64,000 nucleotides of DNA, taken from the NCBI GenBank assembly GCA_027365225.1, contig DAHXNV010000006.1, positions 1 to 64,000 of the forward strand, given 5' to 3'. Source of the stretch: Gammaproteobacteria bacterium. GTDB lineage: Bacteria > Pseudomonadota > Gammaproteobacteria > Steroidobacterales > Steroidobacteraceae. Position 1 is the first letter of the stretch. Each line of letters begins with the position of its first letter. The notes under the pieces are model-generated. The model had not been told where the DNA came from. It saw nothing but the letters and a program-made list of their open reading frames with translations, and made no database searches. This document shows positions 137 through 46,888 of the stretch, in pieces. Position numbers and translations under genes: made by a program.

Positions 137-1786
137 CTAGTGCTGGTGATCGGTCGAGTCGATGAATGCCACGATGTTGGCATGCAACTGCTTCAGCGCC
201 GGCACGTGCACGTAGATCATGTGACCGGACTTGTAGTAGTGGTACTGGATGTTCGCCTGCAGCTTGCGCTCCATGGGCAGGTGCCGCATCTCGTAGATGC
301 CCTCGTAGAAGGGCGTCGCGAGGTCGAAGTAGCCGCCGTTCAGCATCACCTTCAGATCCGGATCCTGCTTCATCGCGTTCGCGAGATCCGGCATCACGTT
401 GAGCGCCCGGGACAGCGCGTAGCCCACCCCGGGCTGTCTGTGCTCGAAGTTCCAGATCCGCCAGACCGGAATCTGCATCTTGTAACGCAGTCCCATGCCG
501 AAGTGCAGGACCTTGCGCGAGTAGTCGTTGAACGCCGCGGCATACGCGGAGCTGATCGCCGCGGACTGCGGATCGTATTGGGCGCGCTGCCCGAGCGGAT
601 TCAATGACGCACCGGCGAAGCGGGAGTCGAGCCGGCCGGTGGATTCATCGGTGCCGGCGAGCAGCTCGTGCTGGAACTCGCCCCCGGTGACACGGAGATT
701 CGCTTTTTCGATGTAGCCGACCGGTAGCCCCGTGTACTCGTGCAGTTTTGCCGCGATGGCATCGAAGTCCGAGGTGCGCAGCAGCGAGCCGGCGCGCAGC
801 GCCTGCGCATAGTCGGTCATCGCGAAGTGCTCGACTCGGGCGAGCAGCGGCCTCAATGGGGGCTGGCCGCCCGGCAACTTGTGGTGATACCACGCGGTGG
901 CGGTGAAAGACGGCAGCGAGAGCTCATAGGGCAGGTCGATCCCGGGATTGAAGCGCGCCATTCCGATTCCATTGGAATCGTCGAAGTTCAGGATTGCCGA
1001 GAGCAGGATCACGCCGTTGAAGTCGATATTGTGACGGGTCTCGAGGGCGTTGACGAGCATGGCCGAGCGCGGCGTGCCGTAGCTCTCGCCGAGGAGGTAC
1101 TTCGGGGAGTTCCAGCGGCCGTACTTGGACAGGAACTTCATGATGAACTGCGAGAACGCGTGCACGTCCGCGTCCGCACCATAGAAGTTCTTGGCCGGGT
1201 CGGGACCGCGCACCCGGCCGAATCCCGTTCCGGGGGCATCGACGAACACCAGGTCCGAGGCATCGAGCAGGCTGTACTCGTTGTTCACGAGCTTGTAGGG
1301 GGCTGGCGGGGTCTGCGTGTGATCGGCCGTGATCACGCGGCGGGGGCCGAAGGCGCCCATGTGCAGCCATACGCTCGCCGAGCCTGGGCCGCCATTGTAG
1401 AGGAAGGTGATCGGACGTTTGCTCGGTTTGGCCCCATTCTTGAAATAGGCCACGTAGAACATCGCGGCCTCGGACTGCACCCGCTTGGCCTTGCCGGGAT
1501 TCGGCTGTCCGAATCCGTACGCGCCCGTCGCGTCATTCCAGCCAGGGCCGTGCACGATGATCATGCCCGCCACGGCTCGGTAGTGGATGGTGTGGCCGTT
1601 CACCGTCACCGCACCTTTTGTGGTGCTCGCGTGGGTATGGAAATACGGGTTGTGCGTGCGACGCCAGGGCCGCTTTGCCGGCGACTTGGCGAGGGCGGTC
1701 GTGGCGGCGCCGACCGCCCCGAGCGCGATGGCCGCGAGCAGCGCGGCGCCACCGGTCAGGGCGCGGCCGTGCATCGTGTGACTCAT
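137..1786 (-). CDS. S10 family serine carboxypeptidase-like protein (distal paralog)
   Basis: A 549-residue secreted or periplasmic alpha/beta-hydrolase peptidase of the S10 (serine carboxypeptidase) family. The N-terminus has a hydrophobic segment (about residues 10-33) that looks like a signal peptide. The oxyanion-region motif NGGPGSAS lies near residue 130, the nucleophile motif GESYGT near 232, the likely catalytic Asp in NGGYFDLATPF near 483, and the His in SGHMIYV near 523, so the triad looks intact. A GGGAGG ribosome site precedes the ATG by 6 bases. The start overlaps the stop of the upstream paralog as ATGA, so the two are co-transcribed. The substrate cannot be read from sequence; bacterial S10 homologs are poorly characterised. 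Confidence 0.9.
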   Translation of the reverse strand: MSHTMHGRALTGGAALLAAIALGAVGAATTALAKSPAKRPWRRTHNPYFHTHASTTKGAVTVNGHTIHYRAVAGMIIVHGPGWNDATGAYGFGQPNPGKAKRVQSEAAMFYVAYFKNGAKPSKRPITFLYNGGPGSASVWLHMGAFGPRRVITADHTQTPPAPYKLVNNEYSLLDASDLVFVDAPGTGFGRVRGPDPAKNFYGADADVHAFSQFIMKFLSKYGRWNSPKYLLGESYGTPRSAMLVNALETRHNIDFNGVILLSAILNFDDSNGIGMARFNPGIDLPYELSLPSFTATAWYHHKLPGGQPPLRPLLARVEHFAMTDYAQALRAGSLLRTSDFDAIAAKLHEYTGLPVGYIEKANLRVTGGEFQHELLAGTDESTGRLDSRFAGASLNPLGQRAQYDPQSAAISSAYAAAFNDYSRKVLHFGMGLRYKMQIPVWRIWNFEHRQPGVGYALSRALNVMPDLANAMKQDPDLKVMLNGGYFDLATPFYEGIYEMRHLPMERKLQANIQYHYYKSGHMIYVHVPALKQLHANIVAFIDSTDHQH

Positions 1787-3873: not shown

Positions 3874-4569
3874 ATGGAATACGTCCTCACTCCGCCGCGC
3901 ATAACGAGCGCGCCAGTCGCCGGCACTGCCCGGCGCTTCCCCGTGCATCGCATCTATTGCGTGGGCTCGAACTATCAGGCCCATGCCCAGGAGATGGGCC
4001 GTACCGGCGGCGAGCCGCCGGTGTTCTTCATGAAGCCGGCGGACGCGTTGCTGCCGGTCGAGTCCGGCGAGGTGGGGCGGCTGCCCTATCCGAGCCTGAC
4101 CCATGACTTTCATCACGAGGTGGAACTGGTCGTGGCGATCGGCGAAGGCGGATGCGACATCCCGCCCGCCGAGGCGCACCGGCACGTGTACGGCTATGCC
4201 GTCGGTCTCGACATGACCCGGCGCGATCTACAGGCCCAGATGAAAAAGCGCGCGGGACCGTGGTGCATCGGCAAGGGGTTCGAGTATGCCGCGCCGATTG
4301 GACCGGTCACCGGGCATGCGCAGGCCGCGCAGATCGGCGCGGCGGTGATCGCGCTGAACGTCAACGGCGTCGAGCGCCAGCGCGGCGCGATAGCGGAGAT
4401 GATCTGGAGCGTGCCGCAGATCATCGCGCAGCTGTCGGCCGCCTGGACGCTTGCGCCCGGTGATCTGGTGTTCACCGGCACGCCGGCCGGGGTCGCCGCC
4501 GTCGAGCGGGGCGATCTGCTCGAGGCCAGCGTCACGGGTCTCGAGCCATTGCGGGTGCGGGTCGCCTGA
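3874..4569 (+). CDS. fumarylacetoacetate hydrolase family protein (fumarylpyruvate hydrolase-like)
   Basis: A 231-residue protein of the FAH family, metal-dependent enzymes that cleave or decarboxylate C-C bonds of 2-oxo acids. It lacks the long N-terminal domain of true fumarylacetoacetase. The N-terminal signature RIYCVGSNYQAH followed by EPPVFFMKPADAL resembles fumarylpyruvate hydrolases of the gentisate pathway (NagK type). Visible family landmarks: acidic metal ligands in HHEVELVVAIGEGG (about residue 81), DMTRRDLQ (about 111), GKGFEYAAPIGP (about 134) and GDLVFTGTPAGV (about 200). The ATG at 3874 is chosen over an in-frame GTG at 3856. No gentisate genes are nearby, so the substrate is uncertain. 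It converges with the thiolase gene. Confidence 0.85.
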   Translation: MEYVLTPPRITSAPVAGTARRFPVHRIYCVGSNYQAHAQEMGRTGGEPPVFFMKPADALLPVESGEVGRLPYPSLTHDFHHEVELVVAIGEGGCDIPPAEAHRHVYGYAVGLDMTRRDLQAQMKKRAGPWCIGKGFEYAAPIGPVTGHAQAAQIGAAVIALNVNGVERQRGAIAEMIWSVPQIIAQLSAAWTLAPGDLVFTGTPAGVAAVERGDLLEASVTGLEPLRVRVA

Positions 4570-4597
4570 GGCGCCCCCGCAACAGGCGGCGTGTGTG

Positions 4598-5812
4598 TCA
4601 AAGGCGCTCGATCAGCAGCGCGATGCCCTGACCGACGCCGATGCACATGGTGCATAGCGCACGCCGCCCGCCTGCGGCTTCGAGTTGATTCAGCGCCGTG
4701 GCGATGAGCCGCGCTCCGCTCGCCCCGAGGGGGTGGCCGATCGCGATCGCGCCCCCATTGGGGTTCACGTGCCCGGCATCATCGGGCAGGCCGAGCTCGC
4801 GCAGGACCGACAGCGACTGCGCGGCGAACGCCTCGTTGAGTTCGATCAAATCGATCTTGGCGAGCGATGTTCCGGTACGCTGCAGCAGCTTGCGCGTCGC
4901 CGGCACCGGTCCGATGCCCATGATGCGCGGCGGCACGCCGGCCACGGCGCTGCCGATCACCCGGGCGCGGGGCGCGAGGCCAAAGCGCCGCGCCGCCGCT
5001 TCGCTCGCCAGCAACACCGCGGCGGCGCCATCGTTGATGCCCGAGGAGTTGCCGGCGGTCACCGCGCCCTCGGGTCGTACGATGCCTTTGAGACGGGCGA
5101 GCGCCTCCAGGGTGGTCTCAGGTCGTGGGTGCTCGTCCTGCCGGATCTGCTGGGCGGGATGCTTGGGATGAGTCACAGTGACCGGGACGATTTCGCGCTC
5201 GAAGAACCCGTCCGCATGGGCGCGCGCATAGCGTTGCTGGCTGCGAAGCGCGAAAGCGTCCTGGTCGGCTCGGGAAATTCCGCGCTCGGCGACGAGATTC
5301 TCCGCCGTCTCGGCCATGGAGTCGATGCCGAAGCGGCTGCGGATGACGGGGTTGACGAATCGCCACCCGAGTGTGGTGTCTTCGAGCCTCGTGCCGCGCT
5401 CGAACGCCGTGTTGGCTTTGCCGAGGACGTAGGGAGCGCGCGTCATGCTCTCTATTCCGCCGGCGATCATCAAATGCGCCTCGCCGGCCGCGATGGCGCG
5501 GGCCGCGATGGCGATGGCATCGAGGCTCGAGCCGCACAGCCGGTTCACGGTGGAGGCGGGCACACTCTCGGGTAGCCCCGCCAGTAGGACCGCCATGCGC
5601 GCCACGTTGCGATTGTCCTCGCCGGCCTGATTGGCGCAGCCGAGGTAGACGTCGTCGAGGCTGGCCCAGTCGACCCGGGGGTGCCGCTCGAGCAGGGCGC
5701 GTATCGGCACGGCCGCGAGGTCGTCCGTGCGGACACCTCCGAGCGAGCCCCCGTAGCGGCCGAATGGTGTCCGCAGAGCATCACAGATGAGAACCGGACT
5801 GAGGTCTACCAT
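4598..5812 (-). CDS. pcaF: 3-oxoadipyl-CoA thiolase-like acetyl-CoA C-acyltransferase
   Basis: A 404-residue thiolase. The nucleophilic Cys lies in [10 protein letters not shown] (about residue 90), the catalytic His in [14 protein letters not shown] (about 355) and the second Cys in [10 protein letters not shown] (about 387). The stretch [17 protein letters not shown] is characteristic of PcaF/PaaJ-type 3-oxoadipyl-CoA thiolases, which release succinyl-CoA and acetyl-CoA at the end of the beta-ketoadipate and phenylacetate routes. Since paaABCDEGZ lies 31 kb away without its own thiolase, this gene could provide the PaaJ step (inference). It is divergent from acuI, and a perfect palindrome covers its start codon, which suggests direct repression. 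Confidence 0.85.
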
Positions 5813-37463: not shown

Positions 37464-37744
37464 CCGAGGATTGGCTGTTGTACGAGGTGTTCATCCGTTC
37501 GCGCTCGGGACTCGAGCACAAGCACGTCGGCAGTGTGCATGCCGCCGATGCGCGCATGGCGATCGAGCATGCCCGCGACACGTACACCCGACGCCTCGAG
37601 GGGGTGAGCATCTGGGTCGTGCGCTCGAGTGAGATCGTCGCTTCCGATCCGGAGGAGGCCGAGGCGCTGTTCGAGCCGGCGCGCGACAAGATCTATCGTC
37701 ATCCGACGTTCTACGCGATCCCGGAGGAGGTCAAGAACCTATGA
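37460..37744 (+). CDS. paaB: phenylacetyl-CoA epoxidase subunit PaaB
   Basis: A 94-residue small subunit of the epoxidase, thought to bridge the PaaA-PaaC heterodimers into a larger assembly. The family features [24 protein letters not shown], here read over two lines, and [12 protein letters not shown], then [13 protein letters not shown] are all visible. The start overlaps paaA by ATGA and the end overlaps paaC by ATGA, a tight coupling that suggests balanced subunit synthesis. Confidence 0.96.
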
Positions 37745-38529: not shown

Positions 38530-39011
38530 GCGCGCCGGCGGCCGCGGCCGCGGCACTGCGCGAGCGGCGCGTCTGGCGCACGCTCGAGTCGGTGCCGGAC
38601 CCGGAGATTCCGGTGGTCAATGTCGTGGAACTCGGCATCGTGCGCCACGTGCGCACGGCGGGGGATGGGCGCATCCACGTGGGGCTCACTCCGACGTATT
38701 CGGGGTGCCCGGCTACGGAGGTCATCGAACAGGCGGTGCGCACGGCGCTCGATCATGCGGGCCTGGATGATGTGGCGCTCGAGACGGTGCTGTGGCCGGC
38801 CTGGTCGAGCGAGTGGCTGAGCGAGTCGGGTCGGCGCAAGCTCGAGGCGTTCGGTGTCGCGATCGAGCCCCGGGCGGGGGCGGCGCCGGCCTGTCCGCGC
38901 TGCGCCAGCCGCAACGTCGAGCGTATCGGGGAGTTCGGCTCTACGCCCTGCAAGGCGCATTATCGCTGTCGGACGTGCCTCGAGCCGTTCGATACGTTCA
39001 AGTGCATTTGA
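38526..39011 (+). CDS. paaD: phenylacetate degradation protein PaaD (Fe-S assembly-like)
   Basis: A 161-residue DUF59/MIP18-family protein thought to help mature the metal centre or Fe-S cluster of the epoxidase complex. The N-terminal DUF59 part has VPDPEIPVVNVVELGIV (about residues 20-36) and LTPTYSGCPATEVIEQ (about 53-68). The C-terminal part has four Cys in CPRC and CRTC pairs (about 123-153), a probable zinc or Fe-S site. The start is GTG overlapping the paaC stop; a GTG codon directly before it is an alternative. Confidence 0.93.
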   Translation: MSAPAAAAAALRERRVWRTLESVPDPEIPVVNVVELGIVRHVRTAGDGRIHVGLTPTYSGCPATEVIEQAVRTALDHAGLDDVALETVLWPAWSSEWLSESGRRKLEAFGVAIEPRAGAAPACPRCASRNVERIGEFGSTPCKAHYRCRTCLEPFDTFKCI

Positions 39012-39012
39012 G

Positions 39013-40083
39013 ATGCTGAGATTCCACAGGCTGCGCGTCGTCGAGGTGCGCCCCGAAGCCGAGGATGCCGTCGCTGTTGCGCTCGAGGTGCCCGCTGGGC
39101 TGCGCGGGGAATATCGCGGCTCGCCCGGCCAACACATCGTGCTGCGCGCGACGGACGGGGACGGGGAGCTGCGCCGGACCTATTCGCTCACCGACGCGCC
39201 GGGGTCGGAGCCGCTGCACATCCTCGTGCGCAAGCAGCCGCAGGGGCGCATGTCGCAATGGCTGGCGGGCCTGAGGTGCGGAACACAGATCGAGGTGCTG
39301 CCGCCGAACGGCAGCTTCACGCCGCACTCCGGCTCGCTCGATCGCGGCCTGCGAGTCGCATTCGCCGCCGGCAGCGGCATCACGCCGGTGCTGTCGGTGA
39401 CGCGCGCGGTGCTGGCCGCCGGCGGTGCCATGATGATCTTTTACGGCAATCGCGCCAGCGCCCGCGCCATGGGGCTCGAGACGCTGCAGGGACTGAAGGA
39501 TCGCTATCCCGAGCGGCTGTCGCTGCATTTCATCATGAGCCGCGAGCCGCAGGAGGTCGGGCTCTACAACGGACGGCTCGATGGCGCGAAGGTCCGCGAG
39601 CTGGCCGGCGCGTTCTTCGAGCCGCGACGGATCCTCGAGGCGTTCGTCTGCGGTCCGGGCGACATGGGCGGGCAGGCGAGGGCGGCGCTGCAGGCGCTCG
39701 GTATGCCGGCCGAGCGCATTCATGTGGAGCATTTTGCGGTGGCCGGTGAGGCGGTGGCCGAGGCTGACTCGCCGGCGGCAGAGCAGGCCCCTCGGGCGGG
39801 GATGGCCGAGGTCGGTGTGACGCTCGACGGCCGGCGCCGCTCGTTCCCGATGGCGCTCGATGCCGATACGGTGCTCGATGCCGCGGAGCGGGCCGGCATC
39901 GAGCTGCCCTTTTCCTGCCGCTCCGGCGTGTGCTCGACCTGCCGCACCAAGGTTGTGCGCGGCAAGGTTCGCATGGAGCACAACTACGCGCTCGAGGCGT
40001 GGGAGCTCGAGCAGGGCTACGTACTGGCGTGCCAGTCGAGGTGCCTGACGCCGCAGCTCGAGCTCGATTACGACGAGCGGTGA
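39013..40083 (+). CDS. paaE: phenylacetyl-CoA epoxidase reductase subunit PaaE
   Basis: A 356-residue electron-transfer subunit. The ferredoxin-reductase part has the FAD motif RRTYSLTDAPG (about residues 56-66) and the NAD-binding FAAGSGITPVLSV (about 116-128). The C-terminal plant-type [2Fe-2S] domain (about 265-356) holds CRSGVCSTC and a later Cys in LACQSRC. It moves electrons from NADPH to the PaaA diiron site. The ATG begins 1 base after the paaD stop. A linker rich in Ala and Glu (about 240-262) joins the two parts. Confidence 0.96.
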   Translation: MLRFHRLRVVEVRPEAEDAVAVALEVPAGLRGEYRGSPGQHIVLRATDGDGELRRTYSLTDAPGSEPLHILVRKQPQGRMSQWLAGLRCGTQIEVLPPNGSFTPHSGSLDRGLRVAFAAGSGITPVLSVTRAVLAAGGAMMIFYGNRASARAMGLETLQGLKDRYPERLSLHFIMSREPQEVGLYNGRLDGAKVRELAGAFFEPRRILEAFVCGPGDMGGQARAALQALGMPAERIHVEHFAVAGEAVAEADSPAAEQAPRAGMAEVGVTLDGRRRSFPMALDADTVLDAAERAGIELPFSCRSGVCSTCRTKVVRGKVRMEHNYALEAWELEQGYVLACQSRCLTPQLELDYDER

Positions 40084-40107
40084 GTCGGCCGGCAGGGTGA
40101 GGATCCC

Positions 40108-40899
40108 ATGAGCTACCAGACCATCGACTACGCGGTTGCCGCAGGCATCGCCCGCCTCAGGTTGAATCGGCCGGAACGGCTCAACAGCTTCAATGCGCTC
40201 ATGCACCAGGAGGTGCGCCATGCGCTCACGGCGCTCGCGGCCGACACCGAGGCGCGAGTGTTGATCCTCACCGGCGCCGGTCGCGGCTTTTGCGCCGGAC
40301 AGGACCTCGGCGATCGGGCGAGTGTCCCGGGGGGCGCGCCGGCGGACCTCGGGGAGTCGATCGAGCGCCATTACAACCCGTTGATCCTGATGTTGCGCCG
40401 GCTGCCGTTGCCGGTCATCGCCGCGGTCAATGGCGTGGCGGCCGGCGCGGGCGCGAATATCGCGTTCGCCTGCGATCTGGTGCTGGCGGGGCGCTCGGCG
40501 AGTTTCGTGCAGGCGTTCGCGCGTATCGGTCTGGTACCGGATTGCGGCGGCACGTGGTTCGTGCCGCGGCTGGTCGGAGCGGCGCGGGCGATGGGACTGG
40601 CGCTGCTCGGGGAGAAGCTGCCGGCCGCGCAGGCGGCGCAGTGGGGACTGATCTGGCGCTGTCTCGAGGACGATGAGCTCGGGCCGGAGGTCGATTCGCT
40701 CGCCGAGCGGCTGGCCGCCGCCCCGACCCGCGCGCTGGCGCGCGCCAAGCAATTGATCTGGCAAAGCGCAAACCGCACGCTCGAGCAACAGCTCGATGCG
40801 GAGCGGGACGCGCAGCGTGAGCTCGGCTACAGCGTCGATTATGCCGAAGGGGTCGCGGCGTTCATCGGCAAGCGCGAGCCGCGATTCACGGGGCGATGA
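40108..40899 (+). CDS. paaG: 1,2-epoxyphenylacetyl-CoA isomerase PaaG
   Basis: A 263-residue crotonase-family enzyme that rearranges ring-1,2-epoxyphenylacetyl-CoA to oxepin-CoA. Oxyanion segments are GRGFCAGQDLGDRA (about residues 56-69) and NGVAAGAGANIAFACDLVLA (about 108-127). The catalytic Asp region is RIGLVPDCGGTWFVPRLVG (about 139-157), as in PaaG. GGTGAGGA ribosome site. It lies between paaE and paaZ in the same operon. Confidence 0.93.
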   Translation: MSYQTIDYAVAAGIARLRLNRPERLNSFNALMHQEVRHALTALAADTEARVLILTGAGRGFCAGQDLGDRASVPGGAPADLGESIERHYNPLILMLRRLPLPVIAAVNGVAAGAGANIAFACDLVLAGRSASFVQAFARIGLVPDCGGTWFVPRLVGAARAMGLALLGEKLPAAQAAQWGLIWRCLEDDELGPEVDSLAERLAAAPTRALARAKQLIWQSANRTLEQQLDAERDAQRELGYSVDYAEGVAAFIGKREPRFTGR

Positions 40900-40917
40900 C
40901 CCAGCGGGGGAGAGCTG

Positions 40918-42960
40918 ATGCAATTGCGAAGTTACATCGCAGGCGAATGGGTGAGCGGCGCGGGCAGCGGCGCGGCGCTGCGCGATGCGAGCACCGGGGA
41001 GGTGATCGCCAGCGCCTCGAGCGACGGTCTCGACTTCGCCGCCGTGCTCGAGCATGCCCGCGCCGTCGGCGGCGCCAATCTGCGCCGCCTGAGCTTTCAC
41101 GAGCGCGCCGCGCGCCTGAAGGGGCTCGCCAGATTCCTCACCGAGCACAAGGCGGAGCTCTACGGGCTTTCCTACGCCACCGGAGCGACGCAGGCGGATG
41201 CCTGGCTCGATATCGACGGAGGCATCGGCACGCTGTTCGTCTACGCGAGCAAGGGCATGAAGGAGCTGCCCGACGGATATGTGTACGTCGACGGCCCGAC
41301 CGAGTCGTTGGCCAAAGGCGGCAGCTTTCTCGGCCAGCACATTTATCTGCCGCTCGAGGGCGCCGCGGTGCACATCAACGCCTTCAACTTCCCGGTCTGG
41401 GGGATGTTGGAGAAACTTGCGCCGACACTGCTCGCCGGGGTGCCGGCCGTGGTGAAGCCCGCCACGGCCACCGCCTACCTCGCCGAACTCGCCTTTCGGC
41501 TGATCATCGACTCCGGTGAGCTGCCGGAAGGTGCCGTGCAGTTGATCTGCGGGGGGGTCGGTGATCTGTTCGATCACCTGACCTGTCAGGACGCGATTGC
41601 CTTCACCGGCTCGGCCTCGACCGCGCGCGGGCTGCGCGCCCATCCCCGGGTTCTCGATCGGTCGGTGCGGTTCACGGCCGAGACCGACTCGCTGAACTCC
41701 TGCATTCTCGGACCCGATGCCGGCCCGGGCAGCCCCGAGTTCGATCTGTTCGTGCGGGAAGTGGTGCGGGAGATGACCGTCAAGGCGGGACAGAAGTGCA
41801 CCGCCATTCGCAAGGCGATCGTGCCGGCGGCGCACAGCGCCGCGCTGCTCGATGCGCTGCGCGCCGCGCTCGAGCAGGTAGTCATCGGGAACCCGCGCGA
41901 CGCGACGGTGCGCATGGGGCCGCTCGCCTCGCTCGCCCAGCGCCGCGAGGTGCTCGCGCAGCTCGGGCGCCTGGCGCGCGAGGCGCGCGTCGTGTGCGGG
42001 GGGAGCGCCGCGCCGAAGCTCACCGGCGCCGATGCCGAGCGCGGCGCATTCATTGCGCCGACGCTGCTGCGGTGTGACGACGGCGCGCGCGCTCACGCGG
42101 TGCACGAGGTCGAGGCCTTTGGTCCGGTCAGCACGGTGATGACGTACGACACGGTGGAATCGGCCGTGGAGTTGGCGCGCCGTGGCGGGGGGAGCCTGGT
42201 CGGCTCGGTGTTTACCGCCGACGATGCGCTTGCGGCGCGGCTGGTGCTGGGGCTTGCGCCGCTTCATGGCCGGGTGCTCGTGGTCAACCGCCACTGTGCC
42301 AAGGATTCGACCGGCCACGGCTCGCCGCTGCCGCATCTGGTGCACGGCGGGCCGGGACGGGCCGGCGGCGGTGAGGAGATGGGTGGAATCCGCGGGGTGC
42401 TGCACTACATGCAGCGCACGGCGGTGCAGGGAACGCCCGATGTGCTCAGCGCCGTCATGGGGCGCTGGGTCAGAGGATCCCGGGAACTCGATCCGGGCGT
42501 ACATCCGTTCCGCCAGCCGTTCGGCGCGTTGCGCATCGGTGACACGTTCCGCTCCGGTGAGCGGGAGGTGACGCTGCCGGACATCGAGCGCTTCGCGGCG
42601 ATCTCGGGGGATTACTTCTATGCGCACATGGACGAGGCGGCCGCTCGGCGCAATCCGCTCTTCGGCGGCCGGGTCGCGCATGGTTATTTGCTCATCGCGG
42701 CCGCGGCAGGCCTGTTCGTCGATCCGCCATTGGGCCCGGTGCTGGCCAACTACGGCATCGACGCGCTGCGTTTCACGCAGCCGGTCAAGCCCGGCGATCG
42801 GATCAAGGTCCGCCTGACCTGCAAGGAGAAGTCGCTGCGCGCGGGACAGGGCTATGGCGAGGTGCGTTGGGATACTCAGATCACCAATCAGGATGGCGCG
42901 ACGGTCGCGCAATACGATGTCCTGACCCTGGTGAGCGAGCAGGCGGTCCCGGGCGGTTGA
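40918..42960 (+). CDS. paaZ: bifunctional oxepin-CoA hydrolase / semialdehyde dehydrogenase PaaZ
   Basis: A 680-residue fusion. The N-terminal aldehyde dehydrogenase (about residues 1-525) has the catalytic Glu in FTAETDSLN (about 252) and nucleophile Cys in KAGQKCTAIR (about 294). The C-terminal MaoC-type hydratase (about 535-680) has FYAHMDEAAARRNPLFGGRVAHGYL, with catalytic Asp and His. It opens the oxepin ring and oxidises the resulting aldehyde to 3-oxo-5,6-dehydrosuberyl-CoA. The fusion matches PaaZ fully. GGGGGAG ribosome site. Last gene of the operon, with a strong hairpin right after the stop. Confidence 0.96.
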   Translation: MQLRSYIAGEWVSGAGSGAALRDASTGEVIASASSDGLDFAAVLEHARAVGGANLRRLSFHERAARLKGLARFLTEHKAELYGLSYATGATQADAWLDIDGGIGTLFVYASKGMKELPDGYVYVDGPTESLAKGGSFLGQHIYLPLEGAAVHINAFNFPVWGMLEKLAPTLLAGVPAVVKPATATAYLAELAFRLIIDSGELPEGAVQLICGGVGDLFDHLTCQDAIAFTGSASTARGLRAHPRVLDRSVRFTAETDSLNSCILGPDAGPGSPEFDLFVREVVREMTVKAGQKCTAIRKAIVPAAHSAALLDALRAALEQVVIGNPRDATVRMGPLASLAQRREVLAQLGRLAREARVVCGGSAAPKLTGADAERGAFIAPTLLRCDDGARAHAVHEVEAFGPVSTVMTYDTVESAVELARRGGGSLVGSVFTADDALAARLVLGLAPLHGRVLVVNRHCAKDSTGHGSPLPHLVHGGPGRAGGGEEMGGIRGVLHYMQRTAVQGTPDVLSAVMGRWVRGSRELDPGVHPFRQPFGALRIGDTFRSGEREVTLPDIERFAAISGDYFYAHMDEAAARRNPLFGGRVAHGYLLIAAAAGLFVDPPLGPVLANYGIDALRFTQPVKPGDRIKVRLTCKEKSLRAGQGYGEVRWDTQITNQDGATVAQYDVLTLVSEQAVPGG

Positions 42961-42965
42961 GACCC

Positions 42966-42986
42966 CCGGGGGCGCAGCGCCCCCGG
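42966..42986 (+). terminator. GC hairpin immediately after paaZ
   Basis: CCGGGGGCGC-A-GCGCCCCCGG, a perfect 10-bp dyad, begins 5 bases past the paaZ stop. Steric limits would leave a loop of 3-5 bases. No T-run follows. It probably ends or protects the paa transcript. Confidence 0.5.
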
Positions 42987-43364
42987 CGACGCACGGCCGC
43001 GCAACATGAGCGCTCCGATCCGGGCGTGGCCCGGGCATTCTGCGACGGCGTTGTCCCGAGACGAGCCCCGGCGGCGGTGAGGAAAATCGCCGATCGCCCC
43101 TTGGGCTCGCTGGGGTCCCTGGACGGCCTCCCAACAGCGCCGGCGTGAGCGTTGCGTGAAACCGCAGGAGCCCTCGCATCCGCGCATCGTGAGGGCACGC
43201 ATCCTGTCCAATGGCGCGGCGGCTCGTAGGCAGGCCGCCTCGAGCCCGCGTGCGCACGCCTTGAGTTAACCGTTTCCGGCCGCATCTCTTGGGCATGAGC
43301 GGCCGGCGCCGAAGCCGGCTCGCGCGGCAGTGGGCGGTGCATCTGCCGCTTCGGAGCGTGGCGC
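42987..43364. other. spacer between paaZ and hsp20
   Basis: About 378 bases without a supported gene. The only clear element is the heat-shock-type promoter at 43260-43287. Open frames on the minus strand here are shadows that continue into paaZ. Confidence 0.55.
43260..43287 (+). promoter_or_regulatory. sigma-32 (heat-shock) promoter of hsp20-lon
   Basis: CTTGAGT (43260-43266), 13 bases, then CCGCATCT (43280-43287). The sigma-32 consensus is CTTGAAA, 11-15 bases, CCCCATNT, so five of seven and six of seven specified positions match. It lies about 75 bases before the hsp20 ATG, in front of two classic heat-shock genes. Confidence 0.7.
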
Positions 43365-43784
43365 ATGAGCAGCGAGCGAGAATACGGGTGGATGTGGGAC
43401 GAGGCTTGCGAGCGGGTGGACGCCGCCGAGCGGGCCCAGCGGGGGCTGCTGCGTTACGTGGGGCCCGGAGCCGATGCGGCGGTGTGGGCGCCGCCGGTGG
43501 ACATTCAGGAGATTGCCGAGGGGGTGGTGGTCGTGTTCGCGCTGCCGGGTGTTGCGCTCGAGGACATCGAGCTGCGGCTCGAGCCCGCCGCGCTCCTCGT
43601 CAGGGCCGAGCGGCGCTGGAAGCTCGCCCACCCGGACGCGCTGATCCGCCGTCTGGAGATTCCATATGGGAGTTTCGTCCGCCGGATTCCGCTCTCGGGC
43701 GTGCCGCTGGTCCTCTCGGCCACCCGTTACGAGTACGGTTGTCTCGAGGTGCGCCTGGTGCGGGCGATGGAGAGTGATTTATGA
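43365..43784 (+). CDS. Hsp20 / alpha-crystallin family small heat-shock protein
   Basis: A 139-residue ATP-independent holdase chaperone that binds unfolding proteins. The alpha-crystallin domain spans about residues 42-135: PPVDIQEIAEGVVVVFALPGVALEDIEL, read in parts, then LLVRAERRWK and IPYGSFVRRIPLSGVPL. The usual conserved GxL motif near the end appears as YGCLEVRL. The C-terminal IxI/V tail seen in oligomeric members is absent or degenerate. GGAG ribosome site. It overlaps lon by ATGA, so the chaperone and protease are made together. Confidence 0.88.
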   Translation: MSSEREYGWMWDEACERVDAAERAQRGLLRYVGPGADAAVWAPPVDIQEIAEGVVVVFALPGVALEDIELRLEPAALLVRAERRWKLAHPDALIRRLEIPYGSFVRRIPLSGVPLVLSATRYEYGCLEVRLVRAMESDL

Positions 43785-46198
43785 CGGACCTATCGAACGC
43801 GTCCTCGGGGCCGAGCGGCGAGCTGCCGCCGCTGCCGGCAGATGTGGTGCCGATCGTTGCACTGCGCAACGTGGTGCTGTTTCCCGGCATCGTCTTGCCG
43901 GTGACGCTCGGACGGCAGGAGAGCATCGCCGCGGCGCAGGACGCGGTGCGCACCGGGCGCAAGGTCGGCTTGCTGCTGCAGCGGGATCCGGCGCTCGAGA
44001 AGCCGGCCGCGAGTGATTTGTACGACGTGGGCGTGCTTGCCACGGTGGTTCGTTACATCACCGGGAACGATGGCGCCCATCACCTGGTCTGCCAGGGCGA
44101 GAGCCGATTCCGGCTCGCGCAAATGGTGCGCGAGCAGCCGTTCCTCGCCGCGCGCGTCGAGTCGATCGCCGAGCCGCAGGCCACGGGTGCGGACATCGAG
44201 GCCCGCAGGGAAGTCTTGAAAGAGCGCGCCGTGGAGGCATTGTCGCTGCTGCCGCAGGCGCCCGCGGAGCTGGTGCGAATGGTCCGGGGCATCGAGTCCG
44301 CCGGGCAGCTCGCCGACCTCATCGTCAGCTTCATGGAGGTCAAGGCGGGAGAAAAGCAGGATGTGCTCGAGACCGTCGATTTACGCGAACGCCTCGACAA
44401 GGTCATGAAGATCCTGACCCATCGCCTGGAGGTGCTGAAAGTCACGCGCGAGATCGCCGAGCAGACTCAGGCGGCCCTCGGTGAGCGCCAGCGCGAGGCG
44501 GTGCTGCGCGAGCAGCTGCACCAGCTGCAGAAGGAGCTCGGCGAGGGCGAGGGCGAGGGGAGCGAGTTCGCCGAGCTCGACCGGGCGGTCGAGGACGCCC
44601 ACATGCCGCCCGACGTCGAGGAGCAGGCGCGCAAGGAGCTCAACCGGCTGCGCCGCATGAGCGAGGCGAGCCCCGAATACGGCATGGTGCGCACCTATCT
44701 TGACTGGCTGGTCGCGCTGCCGTGGAGCAAGTCGGACGCCGAGGACATCGACATCGAGCGCGCGCGCAAGGTACTCGAGGAGGATCACTACGGCCTGGAG
44801 AAGATCAAACGGCGGATCCTGGAGTACCTGGCGGTGCGCAAGCTCAATCCGCACGGCCGCAGTCCGATTCTGTGCTTCGTCGGGCCACCGGGCGTCGGCA
44901 AGACCTCGCTCGGGCAGAGTGTGGCGCGTGCGCTCGGCCTGAAGTTCGTGCGCGCGAGCCTCGGCGGCGTGCACGATGAGGCGGAGATCCGCGGTCACCG
45001 GCGCACCTACATCGGGGCGTTGCCCGGCAACATCATCCAGGGCATACGCAAAGCCGGTACGCGTAATCCCGTATTCATGCTCGATGAGATCGACAAGGTC
45101 GGCGCGAGCTTCCAGGGCGATCCGGCCTCGGCGCTGCTCGAGGTGCTCGATCCGGAGCAGAACTCGACCTTTCGCGACAACTACCTCGGTCTGCCCTTTG
45201 ACCTGCGGCACGTGCTGTTCATCGCGACCGCAAACGTGCTCGAGACGATTCCGGGACCGCTGCGCGACCGCATGGAGGTCATTCAACTGACCGGCTACAC
45301 CGATGAGGAGAAGCTCGAGATCGCGCGGCGCTATCTGCTGCCGCGCCAGCTCGAGGCGAATGGGCTCGAGGGCGCGCAGGTGCAAATCGCGGATGCGGCG
45401 CTGCTGCGGATCATTCACGAGTACACCCGCGAATCGGGGTGCCGGAACCTCGAGCGGGAGATCGGCGCGCTGTTGCGCAGCGCGGCCATGCGGATCGCCG
45501 AGGGCAAGGCGAGCGCGGTGCGCTTCGAGGGCGAGAACGTGCCCGAGGTGCTCGGTCCGGCGCGGTTCGAGAACGAGGTCGCACAGCGCACGTCGGTGCC
45601 GGGCGTGGCGACCGGGCTGGCTTGGACGCCGGTCGGGGGCGACATCCTGTTCATCGAGGCGGCGCGCCTGCCCGGCACCGGCAAGCTGATCCTGACCGGT
45701 CAGCTCGGTGATGTCATGAAGGAGTCCGCCCAGGCGGCGCTCAGTCTCGTCAAGGCGCAGGCCGAGGAACTCGCCATCGATCCGCAGCTGTTCGACCGGA
45801 GCGACATCCACGTGCACGTGCCGGCCGGGGCGATCCCCAAGGACGGTCCGAGCGCCGGCGTTGCGATGTACGTCGCGCTGGCCTCGCTGCTGAGGCGCCA
45901 GTCGGTGTCCCCGGATGTCGCCATGACCGGTGAGATCAGCTTGCGCGGCCTGGTGTTGCCGGTGGGCGGCATCAAGGAGAAGACCATTGCGGCCGCGCGT
46001 GCCGGCATACGCAAGGTCATCCTGCCGGCGCGCAACCGGCGTGATCTGGAGGAAATCCCCGCGAGCGTGCGCGCCACACTGCAGTTCGTGTGGGTCGAGG
46101 AGGTCTCGGGGGCGCTCGAGGAGGCGCTCGGCTCACCCGCCGATGCCCGCAAGTCCCCGGGCCGTGGCCCGGGGGACGCGCAGCGCACGGCGGCCTGA
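43781..46198 (+). CDS. lon: ATP-dependent protease Lon
   Basis: An 805-residue LonA-type cytosolic protease. The N-terminal substrate-binding domain (about residues 25-215) is followed by a coiled-coil helix, and the AAA+ module has GPPGVGKTSLG (Walker A, about 368) and FMLDEIDK (Walker B). The protease domain has the catalytic Ser in KDGPSAGVAM (about 689) and Lys in GGIKEKTIAAARAG (about 733). Its position behind hsp20 and a sigma-32 promoter, not next to clpX as is usual for the main lon, suggests it may be a second Lon (inference). The last 20 residues are a Gly/Pro/Arg tail whose codons form a strong hairpin. Confidence 0.96.
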   Translation: MTDLSNASSGPSGELPPLPADVVPIVALRNVVLFPGIVLPVTLGRQESIAAAQDAVRTGRKVGLLLQRDPALEKPAASDLYDVGVLATVVRYITGNDGAHHLVCQGESRFRLAQMVREQPFLAARVESIAEPQATGADIEARREVLKERAVEALSLLPQAPAELVRMVRGIESAGQLADLIVSFMEVKAGEKQDVLETVDLRERLDKVMKILTHRLEVLKVTREIAEQTQAALGERQREAVLREQLHQLQKELGEGEGEGSEFAELDRAVEDAHMPPDVEEQARKELNRLRRMSEASPEYGMVRTYLDWLVALPWSKSDAEDIDIERARKVLEEDHYGLEKIKRRILEYLAVRKLNPHGRSPILCFVGPPGVGKTSLGQSVARALGLKFVRASLGGVHDEAEIRGHRRTYIGALPGNIIQGIRKAGTRNPVFMLDEIDKVGASFQGDPASALLEVLDPEQNSTFRDNYLGLPFDLRHVLFIATANVLETIPGPLRDRMEVIQLTGYTDEEKLEIARRYLLPRQLEANGLEGAQVQIADAALLRIIHEYTRESGCRNLEREIGALLRSAAMRIAEGKASAVRFEGENVPEVLGPARFENEVAQRTSVPGVATGLAWTPVGGDILFIEAARLPGTGKLILTGQLGDVMKESAQAALSLVKAQAEELAIDPQLFDRSDIHVHVPAGAIPKDGPSAGVAMYVALASLLRRQSVSPDVAMTGEISLRGLVLPVGGIKEKTIAAARAGIRKVILPARNRRDLEEIPASVRATLQFVWVEEVSGALEEALGSPADARKSPGRGPGDAQRTAA

Positions 46199-46231
46199 GC
46201 CGCGATCGGCCGGCTAGCCGCTGCGCGGCTC
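46197..46231. terminator. bidirectional stem-loop between lon and wrbA
   Basis: GAGCCGCG and CGCGGCTC form an 8-bp outer stem around a second dyad (CGGC-TA-GCCG). It begins at the lon stop and lies between two convergent genes, a usual place for a shared terminator. No T-run is visible on either side. Confidence 0.5.
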
Positions 46232-46255
46232 GGTGGTTGGCCTCGGGTGGTGCAT

Positions 46256-46888
46256 CTACTGCGGGCCCGGACCACGCTCGCCCGCCCCGTTCACCAGTCG
46301 GGCGGCGATCTCGGCGACGTGTCGGCCTTGGAAGCGTGCGCCGGCAAGCTCGTTCTCGCTCGGTCGACGCGAGCCATCCCCCCCGGCGAGGGTCGTGGCG
46401 CCGTAGGGACTGCCGCCGCTGATCTCGTCCATGCGGGTCAGGCCCGCAAAGGTGTACGGCAGACCCACGATGATCATCCCCTGATGCAGCAGGGTGTTGT
46501 GGAAGCTCGTGATCGTGGTCTCCTGGCCGCCGTGCTGGGTCGCGGTCGACACGAACACACTGCCGACTTTGCCGACCAGGGCGCCCTTGGCCCAAAGACC
46601 GCCGGTCTGATCGAGAAAATTGCGCATCTGCGCGGCCATGTTGCCAAAGCGCGTCGGCGTGCCGAAGATGATGGCGTCGTAGTCGGCCAGCTCATCGACA
46701 CTGGCGACTGGCGCCTTTTGCTCGCTCTTCATACCCGCCTTGCGGGCGGTTTCCTCCGGCACCAATTCCGCAACGCGCTTCACGCTCACCACGCTGCCGC
46801 GCACAGCCGCCGCGCCCTCGGCCACGGCTTCGGCCATACGTTCGATGTGACCGTAGGACGAGTAATACAAAACGAGAACTTTGGCCAT
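46256..46888 (-). CDS. wrbA: NAD(P)H:quinone oxidoreductase WrbA
   Basis: A 210-residue flavodoxin-like, tetrameric FMN protein that reduces quinones by two electrons and limits redox stress. The N-terminus [20 protein letters not shown] holds the FMN phosphate loop. Later blocks [25 protein letters not shown], seen in sections, [16 protein letters not shown] and [25 protein letters not shown] are all WrbA hallmarks. Length is slightly over the usual 198-200. It is divergent from the TAXI-type gene across 84 bases. Confidence 0.95.

Follow-up and report, generated by a model that had tools for sequence, protein, structure and literature searches.

The window analysed here is a stretch of 64,000 nucleotides that forms part of contig C185 (87.8 kb) in a Steroidobacteraceae assembly of 1.96 Mb in 218 contigs, with an estimated completeness of 66%. 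It carries, in order, a promoter-like pair of boxes, a gene for a small heat-shock protein (hsp20) and a gene for a Lon protease that is termed lon2 here (Table 1). On the 5' side of hsp20 there is a paa-like gene block (a Fer2 oxidoreductase, an enoyl-CoA hydratase and paaZ), followed by an intergenic stretch of 404 bases. The whole promoter pair spans 43260-43287, and 77 bases separate the end of the -10 box from the hsp20 ATG. A preliminary description of this DNA presented hsp20 as overlapping lon in a two-gene arrangement, and the shared ATGA can indeed be read directly from the letters. An RNA thermometer in the presumed leader was considered and rejected: Rfam gave no match up to an E value of 1 across 42900-46500, and the folding of the leader is not unusual (z +0.88).

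Table 1. Features of the hsp20-lon2 locus, with positions counted from the first base of the window
Feature	Position	Strand	Basis
-35 box CTTGAGT, sigma-32-type promoter	43260..43266	+	Direct reading; CTTGA conserved in orthologues
-10 box CCGCATCT, spacer of 13 bases	43280..43287	+	Direct reading; conservation
Presumed 5' untranslated leader	43294..43364	+	Inferred from geometry and letters; start site assumed about 6-8 bases past the -10 box
GGAG, 8 bases ahead of the hsp20 ATG	43353-43356	+	
hsp20, 139 aa: YGWMW in an N-terminal helix, then the alpha-crystallin domain with Cys126 in its last strand; tail-less at the C-terminus	43365..43784	+	PF00011, PDB profile matches, model, fold search, alignment
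ATGA, shared by the hsp20 stop and the lon start	43781..43784	+	Direct reading, 4 bases
lon2, 805-aa Lon	43781..46198	+	Substrate-binding, AAA+, lid and S16 protease domains; motifs; tree

The Hsp20 of the window scores 23.6 bits against Pfam PF00011 (cut-off 20.8). Profile and fold searches agree on an alpha-crystallin fold at residues 45-133, with seven strands in a model of mean pLDDT 77 and pTM 0.61, and all of the 50 PDB matches listed are small heat-shock proteins. The protein ends GCLEVRLVRAMESDL, with no (I/V)-X-(I/V) motif at its C-terminus; the accessible text of one paper portrays this motif as strongly conserved across small heat-shock proteins (PMC8155344). The "holdase" label given to it at the outset comes from the family name; since the conserved motif is absent, the classical role of a large-oligomer holdase is not assured for this sequence.

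The product of lon2 matches TIGR00763 with 922 bits (cut-off 608), has the substrate-binding, AAA, lid and Lon_C domains in order, and falls below the cut-off of NF008053 (777 vs 891 bits). Walker A (GPPGVGKT), Walker B (VFMLDEIDK), the PKDGPSAG serine and the GGIKEK lysine are all present. The same four motifs occur in 68 of 68 hsp20-linked Lons, which were preselected on GPPG and PKDGPSA, so that the count tests only the other two. Another Lon is encoded on contig C140 of the assembly, directly behind clpX, and is 48-49% identical to that of lon2; E. coli Lon is 46% identical to the window protein. In a quick tree of 61 rows, a clpX-type clade (support 100) that holds E. coli Lon and the C140 copy stands apart from an hsp20-type clade (support 99); the tree was made by a quick method with every third hsp20-linked Lon (23 of 68 full-length), and L217 forms a long branch. 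The window Lon, with no adjacent clpX and a place in the other clade, is thus not a canonical clpX-linked Lon. It had been proposed from the letters that this lon lies away from the usual clpX context, with a look for another lon near clpX as a check. The proposal is borne out, since the clpX-lon pair sits on another contig and the window gene is a paralogue of its lon.

The association of the two genes was followed in the best 80 of 122 confirmed Hsp20 relatives, which come mostly from proteobacterial or gammaproteobacterial metagenome assemblies. These 80 include Methylobacter, Ramlibacter, Burkholderiales, Betaproteobacteria, Alphaproteobacteria and one Candidatus Marinimicrobia, and one of the closest is labelled Steroidobacteraceae (L087). 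In 79 of the 80, hsp20 is followed by a lon in the same orientation, which by estimate lies no more than 161 bases away; at the eightieth locus the contig ends 30 bases past hsp20. Among 25 genomes of the genus, 15 have both hsp20 and lon2, one has hsp20 only, one lon2 only and eight neither (Fisher p 7e-5, uncorrected for relatedness). Both exceptions are at contig edges: the short contig with hsp20 only begins a lon, and the one with lon2 only is cut by the contig start. Plasmids carry the pair as well, by annotation in Phenylobacterium zucineum (with a 4-base overlap), Cupriavidus and a Paracoccaceae bacterium, and by position in Azospirillum, Paraburkholderia caribensis, Caballeronia and Porphyrobacter. 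Relatives of lon2 also occur in other surroundings. That of Azoarcus, in the plasmid collection, has no annotated hsp20 immediately upstream, and two genomes of the order to which the window's assembly belongs (G038 and G044) have lon2 with no detectable adjacent hsp20; in one of these the preceding ORF is divergent, and in the other lon2 stands behind a DnaJ-family gene and a 99-aa ORF. The exact 4-base overlap is found by alignment at 8 of the 32 closest loci and at none of the 48 more distant ones among the best 80 (a looser rule counted 13 of the 80). At 42 of those 48 the estimated gap is 15-161 bases, with the lon starts extrapolated. Overlap of the two frames, as far as these alignments indicate, is not general across the relatives.

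The same 80 proteins (the best of 122) share features near both ends. By eye, the (I/V)-X-(I/V) tail is missing in 79 of the 80. An automatic check had flagged eight triplets, of which seven reflect mis-set strand ends and one is real: L093 alone among the lon-linked proteins has a true tail motif, RIDI, at its very end. All 80 stop 2-12 residues past the last strand as set, and all 80 have a cysteine in that strand, in the context GC[LV]. WMW is present near the N-terminus in 71 of the 80, a biased count because the patterns used for the scan (IRR[LM]EIP[HYQ]G and GWMWx[EQ]A) contained GWMW; the cysteine and the tail were not part of the search. Six Hsp20s of the genus that are not linked to lon (L032-L037), drawn from many such matches in the genus genomes, were compared by alignment, and all six have an (I/V)-X-(I/V)-like tail, for example IPKRPQEQPRRISVQAA, and a valine at the place of the cysteine. 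Loss of the tail suggests that the lon-linked proteins may form small assemblies. A more specific idea is that they are a distinct tail-less class, with an invariant cysteine and a WMW helix, that forms no large holdase assemblies and serves as dedicated, possibly redox-sensitive adaptors feeding heat-damaged clients to the partner Lon; we regard this as speculative and rather doubtful. The literature searched on hsp20-lon operons, Lon paralogues linked to small heat-shock genes, Lon in relation to IbpA/B, and tail-less adaptors, with most subscription papers lying outside the search, gave no account of a tail-less, cysteine-bearing, lon-linked class, and nothing on an hsp20-lon pair was found in the accessible portions of PMC3252397 and PMC12117332.

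Within the window alone the promoter site is not striking. CTTGA-N14-18-CCNCAT occurs once on the two strands of the window, at the hsp20 upstream site; when three mismatches are allowed the site is not significant there (1 found vs 1.7 expected). The E. coli-type consensus pattern CTTGAA...CCCCATNT has no match, and a sigma-70 scan of 42800-43800 found no promoter. Across the 1.96-Mb assembly CTTGA-N12-16-CCGCATNT has two matches vs one for the reversed pattern, so rarity alone is weak evidence for a promoter. The second of these matches (C207:37486) was examined as possible support from hslV and falls in the last codons of xerC (LDFQHLARI); it is not counted as evidence because protein coding explains its conservation at least partly. 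Among 41 genus genomes the CCGCAT pattern lies ahead of hsp20-lon in 16 (14 matched by coordinates and 2 by letters) and at an apparent xerC-hslV junction, judged by letters, in 32; hslV was confirmed at 18 of the 31 loci read for this junction.

Comparison among loci is more telling, and the significance of the promoter site derives from conservation, not from the statistics of a single window. CTTGA...CCNCAT is present at most 200 bases upstream at 26 of the 32 closest orthologous loci, whereas 100 rounds of shuffling gave a mean of 0.01 and a largest value of 1. The DNA around the motif in these 32 loci has mostly diverged, and across the motif loci the -10 box lies anywhere from 36 to 133 bases ahead of the ATG. 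The strict motif is absent at six of the 32, at all 48 more distant loci (among the best 80 of 122 relatives) and at the Methylobacter and Ramlibacter loci scanned; six of the 48 agree with the E. coli-type consensus at 11 or more positions, where 1.2 such loci are expected and no shuffle gave more than 5. These loci come from a GTDB scan, a second collection with a large overlap with the set of genus genomes. Removal of near-copies left 21 non-redundant rows, in which CTTGA is invariant and the third base of the -10 box is G in 20 (0.95), the remaining row having CCACAT. Flanking columns mostly have majorities of 33-71%, with 86% at the base immediately 5' of the -35 box. Because presence of the motif was the condition for including a row, it is the contrast of the boxes with their flanks, not the invariance, that counts as evidence. 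Of 24 genus genomes with a close Hsp20 (the own genome and 23 others whose protein is 53-97% identical), 18 have CTTGA with CC[GA]CAT as their best upstream match, two have CTTGACT-13-CCTCACCT and four show no clear site. As judged from these alignments, the promoter site is kept while its surroundings move.

A gene for the candidate sigma factor is at hand. The genome has rpoH (G000:C111; TIGR02392, 402 bits vs a cut-off of 323) and is one of 30 among 31 genus genomes that pass this profile; each of the 30 has one match over the cut-off except G012, with two on different contigs, and all other matches score far lower. CTTGAGT has the CTTGA(A) feature of sigma-32 -35 boxes. The sigma-32 -10 consensus is CCCCATNT, from which CCGCATCT differs at one base, and CCGCAT is found in 20 of the 21 motif rows. 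In the accessible text of another study the RpoH boxes are given as TTGAA / CnATnT and ccATcT (PMC9866376). Heat-shock genes of the genus have related boxes. The best site upstream of clpB is CTTGAA[CG]-13/14-CCCCA at all 16 located loci (18 of 25 fetched loci tried, 2 starts unlocated; no shuffle control), and that of groES is [CG]TTGAA[AT] at all 23 located loci, with CCTAT at 19 (24 loci, 1 unlocated; no shuffle control). For grpE, CTTGAAT-13-CCCCAC is present at three of three located loci out of 19, and is left uncounted as evidence. The 13-base spacing of the hsp20 site resembles that of clpB and groES, where an identical measure gives 13-14 and mostly 13, respectively. Sites ahead of the clpX-linked lon were not used: judged by their letters, matches like CTTGAAA-13-CACCATGT belong to the end of clpX, and the lon start is badly located in most rows.

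Given the -35 core and the spacing common to the clpB and groES sites, RpoH is the best candidate for the sigma factor of the hsp20-lon promoter, and the CCGCAT variant leaves room for doubt. It would be a departure from this if another sigma factor, of the extracytoplasmic-function type or a second RpoH-like protein, read the promoter and the operon answered a stress other than heat. Such a factor could account for the -10 box, which is CCGCAT instead of CCCCAT (all 21 motif rows depart at the third base, 20 with G and one with A), and for base 6 of the -35 box, where motif-bearing rows have C, G or T but no A, whereas clpB and groES of the genus carry CTTGAA or GTTGAA with CCCCA or mostly CCTAT. 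The spacing and the CTTGA core nevertheless equal those of the clpB and groES sites, and no second RpoH over the cut-off was found in the 31 genus genomes, G012 alone excepted; we consider another factor improbable. The sigma-32-type promoter put forward in the preliminary description stands on its conserved footprint, the rpoH gene in the genome and the related boxes at clpB and groES.

Taken together, the locus is quite probably an RpoH-controlled operon in which overlapping frames encode a second Lon and, ahead of it, a dedicated small heat-shock protein that lacks the tail. Unfolded proteins would release RpoH from its chaperones, and RNA polymerase carrying RpoH would start about 7 bases past CCGCATCT to give a single mRNA. 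Ribosomes ending hsp20 would restart at the overlapping ATGA, so that both proteins would rise together. Hsp20 would then bind unfolding clients and Lon2 would degrade those that are unsalvageable, adding to the housekeeping activity of the clpX-linked Lon.

How far the two proteins work together is open to other accounts. Hsp20 may be an adaptor, regulator or substrate of Lon2 and not a general holdase, either delivering selected clients or being degraded itself. The nearly constant pairing in the best 80 of 122 relatives would fit, as would the missing tail and the cysteine of the lon-linked proteins, set against the tail-like triplet and valine of the six unlinked ones; in E. coli, Lon degrades IbpA/B (Bissonnette 2010, cited in PMC8155344, as its accessible text has it). 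The lon2 relatives of Azoarcus, G038 and G044, with no annotated or detectable hsp20 directly upstream, speak against an obligatory partnership of this kind, and we hold it to be possible though on the whole unlikely. We give no greater weight to the notion that two stress genes merely share one promoter, with no joint mechanism. It is in keeping with the estimated gap, in place of an overlap, at most distant loci, and with a lon2 that may stand alone or behind other genes; near-universal adjacency among the best 80 of 122 relatives and joint presence or absence in the 25 genus genomes both count against it. The preferred reading remains the RpoH-controlled operon. Many proteobacteria have such a pair, and little about it is out of the ordinary save the unusually short tail of the chaperone.

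If the two proteins do work together, the locus offers a compact two-gene test of whether a small heat-shock protein can commit clients to degradation and not refolding. Its spread over several groups of proteobacteria, with some copies on plasmids, means that the pair could be transferred to laboratory strains for testing. For a lineage known here mostly from metagenome assemblies, the conserved promoter provides a working sigma-32-type motif.

Several known systems invite comparison. The clpX-lon pair of E. coli is alike in Lon architecture, but its Lon belongs to the other clade. For the ibpAB genes of E. coli we know of no linked lon. Small heat-shock genes are under sigma-32 control in that organism, according to the accessible text of PMC8155344. 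In acidophiles, an hsp20 copy beside lon has been described and coordinated regulation proposed (PMC10490939). The hsp20.3-lon pair of Acidithiobacillus and Nitrospiria in that paper is similar in having a particular hsp20 copy beside lon in a conserved context; its accessible section on the pair is silent on a promoter, an overlap, Lon paralogy and the tail, and the likeness is by description only. On the P. zucineum HLK1 plasmid, PHZ_RS19715-PHZ_RS19720 are annotated as Hsp20 and lon and have an equal 4-base overlap, but this pair is plasmid-borne and its Hsp20 and Lon are 33% and 62.5% identical to the window proteins. A further counterpart is AsrA (PA0779) of P. aeruginosa, presumably a Lon paralogue. 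Listed as a stress-response ATP-dependent protease, asrA rises 8.1-fold on RpoH induction (PMC9866376), and in one RNA-seq study of PAO1 heat induces only a single gene more strongly (PMC4957987), as far as the accessible text of these papers goes. Compared by description only, it resembles lon2 as an RpoH- and heat-induced protease besides the clpX-adjacent lon (PA1802-PA1803); the gene with the adjoining number that is listed as RpoH-induced, PA0778, is icp and not an hsp20. Already known in print, then, from the accessible parts of these sources, are an hsp20 beside lon in acidophiles and an RpoH-controlled stress protease besides Lon, namely AsrA.

The promoter pattern of the hsp20-lon operon has a second match in the same genome, CTTGATT-13-CCGCATCT, which lies within the 3' end of xerC with the hslV reading frame 86 bases downstream. 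The leucine codon of xerC embedded in this site is CTT; across 18 xerC frames of this kind, CTT accounts for about 7% of the remaining Leu codons. The letters of the site were found again in 32 of 41 genomes of the genus. Both the codon and the recurrence are biased as arguments because the search pattern itself demanded CTT; with that bias, they hint that the xerC-embedded site is a candidate heat-shock promoter for hslVU.

Antisense to the paa genes, a 1432-aa open frame extends as far as the promoter; it is probably a shadow frame, the window having a G+C content of 68.5%. Among the 32 closest orthologous hsp20 loci, paaZ lies upstream of hsp20-lon in 17, several others being too short to show it, and wrbA follows on the opposite strand in 10. 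The only Pfam HSP20 match in the source assembly (~66% complete) is the hsp20 of this operon.

Coordinates of features in and beyond the hsp20-lon region
Feature	Sequence	Position	Strand	Remark
1432-aa open frame	window	38998-43296	minus	antisense across paa genes, reaching promoter
paaZ upstream of hsp20-lon	window	40108-43365		
xerC-embedded site	L040 (fetched locus)	1501-1528		same site as next line
xerC-embedded site	C207 (own contig)	37486-37513		
DnaJ/CbpA-like gene, 99-aa ORF (preceding lon)	L215 (fetched locus)	4494-5750		genome G038

In genome G038, from another family of the order, a lon of the lon2 kind (the hsp20-linked type) is preceded by a DnaJ/CbpA-like gene together with an ORF of 99 aa that may encode a CbpM-type modulator; Lon proteins of this kind may therefore pair with different chaperones. 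Genome G021 has, besides its hsp20-linked lon2, an extra lon2-like piece (L266, contig C74) with 82% identity to the window's Lon, in which internal stop codons were counted.

The -10 box varies with the target gene within one genus: that of groES is mostly of the CCTAT type (19 of 23 loci, L150-L172), whereas clpB has CCCCA and hsp20-lon CCGCAT.
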